From assembly GCA_029548365.1 (NCBI GenBank), contig JAKPNN010000022.1, positions 1 through 64,000 on the forward strand: a DNA stretch of 64,000 nt, given 5' to 3'. This document shows, piece after piece, positions 219-1,071 of this stretch (its first letter is position 1; the number at the start of each line of letters is the position of its first letter). This stretch comes from Chloroflexota bacterium. GTDB taxonomy: Bacteria > Chloroflexota > Anaerolineae > Anaerolineales > Anaerolineaceae. The notes below the pieces were generated by a model. The model was not told where the DNA came from, made no database searches, and saw only the letters and a program-made list of their open reading frames with translations. The translations under genes and the position numbers were made by a program.

Positions 219-247
219 ATATTACTATGGCTTTTTTAAATTGTCAA
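219..247 (-). promoter_or_regulatory. Promoter of tRNA-Met
   Basis: On the minus strand TTGACA (242-247) is followed after 17 bp by TAATAT (219-224). A full TATAAT overlaps it at 216-221 with a 20-bp spacer. The element lies about 25 bp upstream of the tRNA 5' end. Confidence 0.6.
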
Positions 248-258
248 TTGATTCTGGG

Positions 259-1005
259 TTATGCCCGGCGTTGCCCGGTGCCAGGGGATTTCAACGCATG
301 GAAAACCGCTTCATCTTGCATGGGGATATAGGTCGGTTCTGGGCGGTAGCCACGTTTAGCGTTTAAGGGCTGGGCAAAGACGGTGCTATTCACTCCGGAA
401 GGAACAGAGCGTTGATTCGCTGCTGGATGAGCTGCCCGGCTTTGCGCCTGGCGCAGTTCTCGACGTGAGATTGCCGGCCCGCCGGACTGTCCCGCTTTCG
501 CAGTCAATCGATTCGCCTTCTTTGAAAAGCTGCCCACGATCATGATACGGATCACCCACACCATCATGGCAATAAATACCGGCACAGTTCGGAGGACAAA
601 GCTCTCATTCACCACACCCGCACTCACCACCGGGTGAGATCCCACAGCCAGCGCCACTCCCCACCAGGTCAGGATGGCATTCATCGTAGCCGCTAAAAAC
701 CAGGCGCCAAACATAAACCAGGCAGAACGATTTTCACCGTTCTCAGACTGCGGCGCCAGCAGAAGTGCGATGCCGGCAAAATCAATCCCGCAAAAGGCAA
801 TTGAAAGCAAGGTAGCCCAGCGAAAGCCCAGGAAGCTGAGGTCACCCAACAGGTCAGAGAGGGCAAAATCAGTTGTGCTGTAATTAAAAGCCTCAAAGGC
901 GACCAGAGCCAGGGTGAAAAAGATAATATATAACATTTCTTTGCGCGTTTTCAACAACGAGTAGAAATTGGACAACGATATTTTTGCTGATTGGCTGACA
1001 TTCAT
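259..1005 (-). CDS. Putative four-helix membrane protein with a basic C-terminal tail
   Basis: Protein of 248 aa that I do not recognise. Hydrophobic segments lie at about residues 24-42, 62-85, 95-118 and 133-158. A polar tail of about 85 residues rich in Arg, Gln, Ala and Pro follows and is presumably cytoplasmic. The start is supported by GGAGG five bases before the ATG. It is transcribed alone from a consensus promoter that carries a LexA-like palindrome, so it may be damage-inducible. No catalytic motif is visible and function is unknown. Confidence 0.75.
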   Translation of the reverse strand: MNVSQSAKISLSNFYSLLKTRKEMLYIIFFTLALVAFEAFNYSTTDFALSDLLGDLSFLGFRWATLLSIAFCGIDFAGIALLLAPQSENGENRSAWFMFGAWFLAATMNAILTWWGVALAVGSHPVVSAGVVNESFVLRTVPVFIAMMVWVIRIMIVGSFSKKANRLTAKAGQSGGPAISRRELRQAQSRAAHPAANQRSVPSGVNSTVFAQPLNAKRGYRPEPTYIPMQDEAVFHALKSPGTGQRRA

Positions 1006-1042
1006 AAGGACCTCCGGTATGTTACAGGGTTGAATTATGATA

Positions 1043-1071
1043 ATTATAGAACACTTGTTCTATTTTGTCAA
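1043..1071 (-). promoter_or_regulatory. Consensus promoter with LexA-like operator
   Basis: On the minus strand TTGACA (1066-1071) and TATAAT (1043-1048) are separated by exactly 17 bp, matching the sigma-70 consensus at all 12 positions. An 18-bp inverted repeat with a 2-nt centre, ATAGAACA-CT-TGTTCTAT, covers 1046-1063, that is the spacer and part of the -10. It contains GAAC-N4-GTTC, the core of the Bacillus-type LexA box. Predicted transcription start is near 1036, about 30 nt before the ATG at 1005. Repression by LexA or another dimeric repressor is inferred. Confidence 0.75.

Follow-up and report, generated by a model that had tools for sequence, protein, structure and literature searches.

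Why should a gene of no named family be preceded by a flawless consensus promoter, and what might act on the palindrome lodged within it? We addressed this question in the window, the whole stretch of 64,000 nucleotides analyzed here (G000:C34:1-64000), which belongs to a 1.65-Mb Anaerolineales MAG (Chloroflexota) that is 70.7% complete. Comparison with the lexA promoters of the order and with orthologous upstream regions leads us to regard the site as very probably the operator-promoter of a LexA-repressed gene of the SOS response, with binding, repression and induction all being inferred from sequence comparison. The gene, which codes for a membrane protein, would then appear to be a new part of the DNA-damage response of the Anaerolineales.

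Read on the minus strand from 1071 to 1043, the site is TTGACA-AAATAGAACAAGTGTTC-TATAAT, in which a 17-bp spacer separates two hexamers matching the consensus at all 12 bases; direct reading and a pattern scan thus agree with the perfect promoter claimed by an earlier, sequence-only reading of this DNA. The scan for TTGACA-N17-TATAAT recovered this site as the single occurrence in the window, none in 100 dinucleotide shuffles of the window, and 10 sites genome-wide, as against 0 for a reversed control pattern. The spacer and the -10 hexamer are overlapped by TAGAAC-N4-GTTCTA (Table 1), which lies within a near-palindrome at 1046-1063. The same reading had described this as an 18-bp palindrome: the GAAC-N4-GTTC core and the overlap with the spacer and -10 stand, but the pairing is imperfect, with 8 of 9 pairs matching and the central pair being the mismatch. 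The predicted 248-residue membrane reading frame of no named family was likewise recovered, with an ATG start and a GGAGG site. A further promoter-like site matching 10 of 12 bases is seen just past its stop codon (219-247, minus strand), before the gene for tRNA-Met(cat) (121-194).

Table 1. Features of the membrane gene and its upstream region, in window positions.
Feature	Position	Strand	Basis
-35 hexamer TTGACA	1066..1071	-	sequence, pattern scan, shuffles
-10 hexamer TATAAT, 17 bp from -35	1043..1048	-	sequence, pattern scan, shuffles
Putative operator TAGAACN4GTTCTA, 3 bases after -35, overlapping -10	1047..1062		lexA motif, orthologue conservation
Ribosome-binding site GGAGG, 5 nt before ATG	1011..1015	-	sequence
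248-aa membrane protein, ATG start, four predicted helices plus a disordered tail (basic, Pro-rich)	259..1005	-	ORF, structure prediction

The core GAACN4GTTC occurs once in the window, where 1.05 occurrences are expected, and the box by itself could therefore be a product of chance and needs other support. Genome-wide it has 25 sites (11 for the reversed control), and among the 10 perfect promoters of the genome it lies inside one only, that of the membrane gene. It is this position inside the promoter, taken together with conservation at the genome's lexA and before orthologues, that excludes chance. A second perfect promoter lies over a palindrome, GGAACGACGTGTTCC (L002 1501-1529; G000:C15:103942), which has a 5-base centre and hence is not a box of the TAGAACN4GTTCTA type.

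The genome encodes one LexA (TIGR00498, 5.6e-49, above the cut-off), which aligns to solved LexA chains in the PDB (4e-25) and retains Ala-Gly, the cleavage region of these proteins, along with the Ser and Lys regions, which have known roles. The promoter of this lexA (L018) reads TTGACA-N17-TATGAT and carries CGAACATCTGTTCA in its spacer on the other strand, a layout like that at the membrane gene; the shared GAACN4GTTC core is what the proposal of LexA control had anticipated for lexA. Across the order the core is present at 29 of 30 lexA loci, L019 being the one without it, and directly follows the -35 hexamer in 28 of the 29 box-bearing loci. A matrix built solely from 31 lexA boxes gave the membrane-gene site the top score in the window (18.0, with the next at 8.9). 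Of the 300 genomes in a phylum sample, 289 have LexA, including all 29 with the membrane protein; being nearly universal, LexA makes co-occurrence with that protein uninformative as evidence. The core, the operator inside the promoter and the box at lexA are as in the LexA regulons of Bacillus subtilis and Mycobacterium, and GAAC-N4-GTTC is the motif published for LexA in both B. subtilis and M. tuberculosis (PMC3323433); the Anaerolineales differ from them in a recA without a box and in the TA...TA flank preference at the membrane gene. RegPrecise 3.0, in the part of its description available to us, includes a Chloroflexi collection and lists LexA among the widespread regulators (PMC3840689). 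The order Anaerolineales is absent from the LexA descriptions in the open-access papers that we found, and our search of that literature turned up neither a LexA paper nor a gene-transfer-agent paper for Anaerolineae; the regulon described here is a concrete and testable one for the order.

The membrane protein is present in 47 of 61 relatives and in 29 of the 300 genomes of the phylum sample, all 29 being of the same class. Cultured relatives with an orthologue include Bellilinea caldifistulae, Levilinea saccharolytica, Longilinea arvoryzae and Thermanaerothrix daxensis. In a genome collection 412 stretches encode it, from which we took the best 80; three loci with less than 220 nt upstream were dropped, and the remaining 77 were compared with 2,907 windows taken from these loci as controls. 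Of the 77 orthologues, 73 have TAGAACN4GTTCTA upstream with no more than one mismatch, as do 2 of the controls, in keeping with the conservation that the sequence-only reading implied for its palindrome; with at most two mismatches the numbers are 77 and 13 (0, 1 and 2 mismatches in 33, 40 and 4 upstreams and in 0, 2 and 11 controls, respectively). The lexA-only matrix places 72 of these upstreams above the 99th percentile of the control windows and 54 above the 99.9th. The promoters beside the box score 11 or 12 of 12 in 62 of the 77, as against 1 of 1,360 control stretches, and the box starts three bases after the -35 hexamer in 57. In the phylum sample the box, allowing two mismatches, was seen at all 21 parsed loci, with six further loci unparsed. 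Among 30 relative loci, a set overlapping the 77 in many places such that the counts are not additive, the exact GAACN4GTTC is found at 21, while the other nine have none within 500 nt (one of them near a contig end). Some orthologues, mostly from other Anaerolineaceae, have TAGAAT or TAGTAC in place of the left half TAGAAC; in these the half overlapping the -10 hexamer is the intact one, and part of the conservation is therefore that of the promoter.

These observations suggest a switch. In the absence of damage a LexA dimer on TAGAACN4GTTCTA would cover the spacer and the -10 hexamer, with the result that polymerase could not start; upon DNA damage LexA would cleave itself and free the consensus promoter, and the membrane protein would be made in a strong burst.

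The genome contains six perfect AGAACN4GTTCT sites, which lie before the membrane gene, two phage-like small-protein genes, a LuxR-type gene and a 277-residue gene, with one lacking a clear gene. The LuxR-type (GerE) gene codes for 134-144 residues and adjoins an MFS-like gene (L262 12289-12752; L257 5598-6041). The 277-residue gene, in which Walker-like motifs are visible by eye, stands with an 88-residue gene behind two boxes (L261 12263-13440; G000:C19), and its product has no Pfam or PDB match; among relatives, 16 of the 19 loci that were parsed have the box ahead of this putative P-loop ATPase gene, 11 of 30 being unparsed. In four genomes (L252 2797-6468, L254, L217 and L236) the same box precedes an operon in which the gene for a B-family DNA polymerase (PF00136, 2.1e-32, in L252, the one tested) is accompanied by an 87-residue gene and a small RecA/ImuA-like gene (with a Rad51 match of only 0.045). 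E. coli keeps this class of polymerase gene under LexA, and the box-preceded operon is likely to be an SOS polymerase operon.

In most known SOS systems recA is under LexA, and the sequence-only reading had looked for the box there as well. The genome's own recA (G000:C28:3628-4587) has no LexA box, and none is found at 24 of 25 parsed relative loci, the one match being weak and far upstream (5 of 30 loci were unparsed). A recA without an operator shows that the regulon is an unusual one, at odds with the textbook SOS response; control of recA is usual but not required of LexA targets. As for the claim of a new SOS gene, LexA control is strongly supported by comparison, through the lexA box and the orthologues, whereas the recA box is missing.

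The TAGAACN4GTTCTA box also stands ahead of a phage-like gene cluster (L247, L266, L267 and L269; L260 232-2540 in the own genome). Its members are a small-terminase-like gene (recognized by eye, with no PHROG match), a large terminase (phrog_5909, 1.9e-5), a GH25 endolysin (5.2e-18), a portal (phrog_10963, 5e-28), a fused protease and capsid (PF25209, 1.5e-26) and a holin-like protein of 73 residues (0.0014); inspection by eye recognized no integrase in it. Within the genus all 8 parsed loci have the box upstream of the cluster; outside it, 3 of the 21 that were parsed do. The cluster occupies the same chromosomal place, with common host flanks, in four genomes of the genus, and large-terminase identity tracks membrane-protein identity (Spearman 0.59 for 91 pairs from 14 genomes; 0 of 2,000 permutations). 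In the genus the cluster has been passed down vertically along with the membrane gene, and it looks like a domesticated phage of the gene-transfer-agent type under LexA. One could envisage a scattered Anaerolineales LexA program in which TAGAACN4GTTCTA ties the membrane protein and the B-family polymerase operon together with the domesticated phage cluster, the last in a single genus, such that damage would yield gene-transfer particles from cells whose envelopes are meanwhile altered by the membrane protein; we hold this to be a long shot.

Two other accounts of the site were weighed against LexA repression. The palindrome might be incidental, with the strong promoter alone conserved before a constitutive gene, and indeed the better kept half is the right one, TTCTATAAT, which lies over the -10 hexamer. 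Yet the 33 upstreams that keep all 12 box bases preserve the left half too, which no promoter element needs, and the orthologous boxes hold the fixed offset from -35 described above; we regard this account as most improbable. Alternatively, TAGAACN4GTTCTA might be owned by another repressor, with LexA using the CGAAC-type box at lexA and no other, and the nearest candidate is the LuxR-type protein, whose gene is itself preceded by TAGAACN4GTTCTA in the genus. The flanks do differ, lexA boxes favoring C before GAAC where the membrane gene has A, as does the offset of the box from -35 (0 at lexA and 3 at the membrane gene), and no LexA was found in two genomes with a boxed membrane gene (G020 and G033, both less than 90% complete). 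Nevertheless, AGAAC-type boxes occur at some lexA loci (L012, L022), and in G021 TAGAACN4GTTCTA itself lies directly before a LexA paralogue (G021:C106:530-1136, L380). Moreover, close relatives of the LuxR-type protein (at least 69% identity) are confined to the genus whereas the box is order-wide, and we accordingly rejected it as the general repressor. An owner other than LexA is, in our estimate, improbable.

The membrane protein family, which spans the order and has no annotation, would under LexA control be a strongly promoted target. The protein of the window has no Pfam, NCBIfam, PHROG or PADLOC match at E up to 10, and 30 members scanned singly gave only scattered weak matches, each in few members. 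AlphaFold2, run with 86 sequences, predicts four helices at a mean pLDDT of 71.7, with core values mostly of 80-90. Over these sequences the N-terminus has a net charge of +3.6 and the 87-residue tail, with 11 prolines on average, one of +7.7, on account of which both ends are probably cytoplasmic. A conserved Pro-Glu-Pro-Thr-Tyr-like motif stands at the end of the basic, Pro-rich tail (70 of 86 sequences), and the invariant residues include Asp75, Asn109, Trp114-Trp115, Pro142 and Arg153. A fold search of the PDB with either model returned nothing at E 0.001 or better, and the best VIA-align score (Z 7.4, 5.2 A over 129 residues) is one that helical bundles may reach by chance; the absence of a reliable solved fold does not show that the fold is new. 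A mobile-element gene was rejected, the neighbors being variable and chromosomal. A phage holin is not indicated either: there is no PHROG match and the gene stands solo in chromosomal contexts.

Granting LexA control, our tentative guess is that the protein may be a membrane-anchored damage checkpoint, with the tail docking on a division or envelope protein. The division inhibitor or pore that the sequence-only reading offered as examples is neither favored nor contradicted by the four helices and long basic tail, by the failure to find a known relative or by the lack of a reliable solved fold. We favor this because other SOS regulons include lineage-specific membrane-bound division inhibitors and because the tail resembles a docking segment. 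Inhibitors of the YneA, SosA and DivS class are small, single-helix proteins, unlike the present one with its four helices and long tail, and our Pfam and NCBIfam scans gave no sequence relation to them; to our knowledge, the known SOS division inhibitors are also unrelated to each other in sequence. The LexA-type control, membrane location and lineage restriction that we infer here are features of that class too, going by the parts of the reports on it available to us (PMC13396833, PMC6851548). The main rival to the checkpoint is a pore or channel, likewise regulated by LexA, that lowers the membrane potential or helps lysis. It would account for the four helices with invariant Asp75, Asn109 and Arg153 in the membrane part and for Foldseek matches to predicted viral four-helix membrane proteins (the best, a transmembrane protein, at 1.5e-4). 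However, no holin or channel family is matched, the best solved-fold scores are those expected by chance, and the phage-like cluster has a small, separate holin-like gene; we consider a pore unlikely. The protein might also be a LexA-regulated membrane partner of the P-loop ATPase operon or of the phage-like cluster, both of which carry the box, but over 61 genomes TerL is found in 22 of 47 with the membrane gene and 6 of 14 without it (p 1.0) and the ATPase in 26 of 47 and 7 of 14 (p 0.77). Such a partnership is very unlikely, and as there was no co-occurrence we rejected the protein as the holin of the cluster or a partner of the ATPase.

The second Foldseek match among predicted viral proteins was a phage DUF2637 protein, from RGL3 (2e-3). 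DUF2637 (PF10935) comprises four-helix proteins of actinobacterial phages and plasmids with a like predicted helix order and, by eye, a similar ALxDL...D...N...P spacing. The profile comparison does not back this match: hmmscan with the DUF2637 profile matched 0 of 30 members, and hhalign against 14 DUF2637 proteins gave E-values of 0.13 and 0.21, which are not significant, and we therefore did not file the membrane protein under DUF2637. Two viral contigs (L215 and L216, 5001-5651) encode a distant relative of the membrane protein with 34% identity. The 'excisionase' of Rhodococcus phage RGL3 (L360 21544-22014) is a DUF2637 membrane protein (Pfam, 1.4e-12), and its annotation looks wrong.
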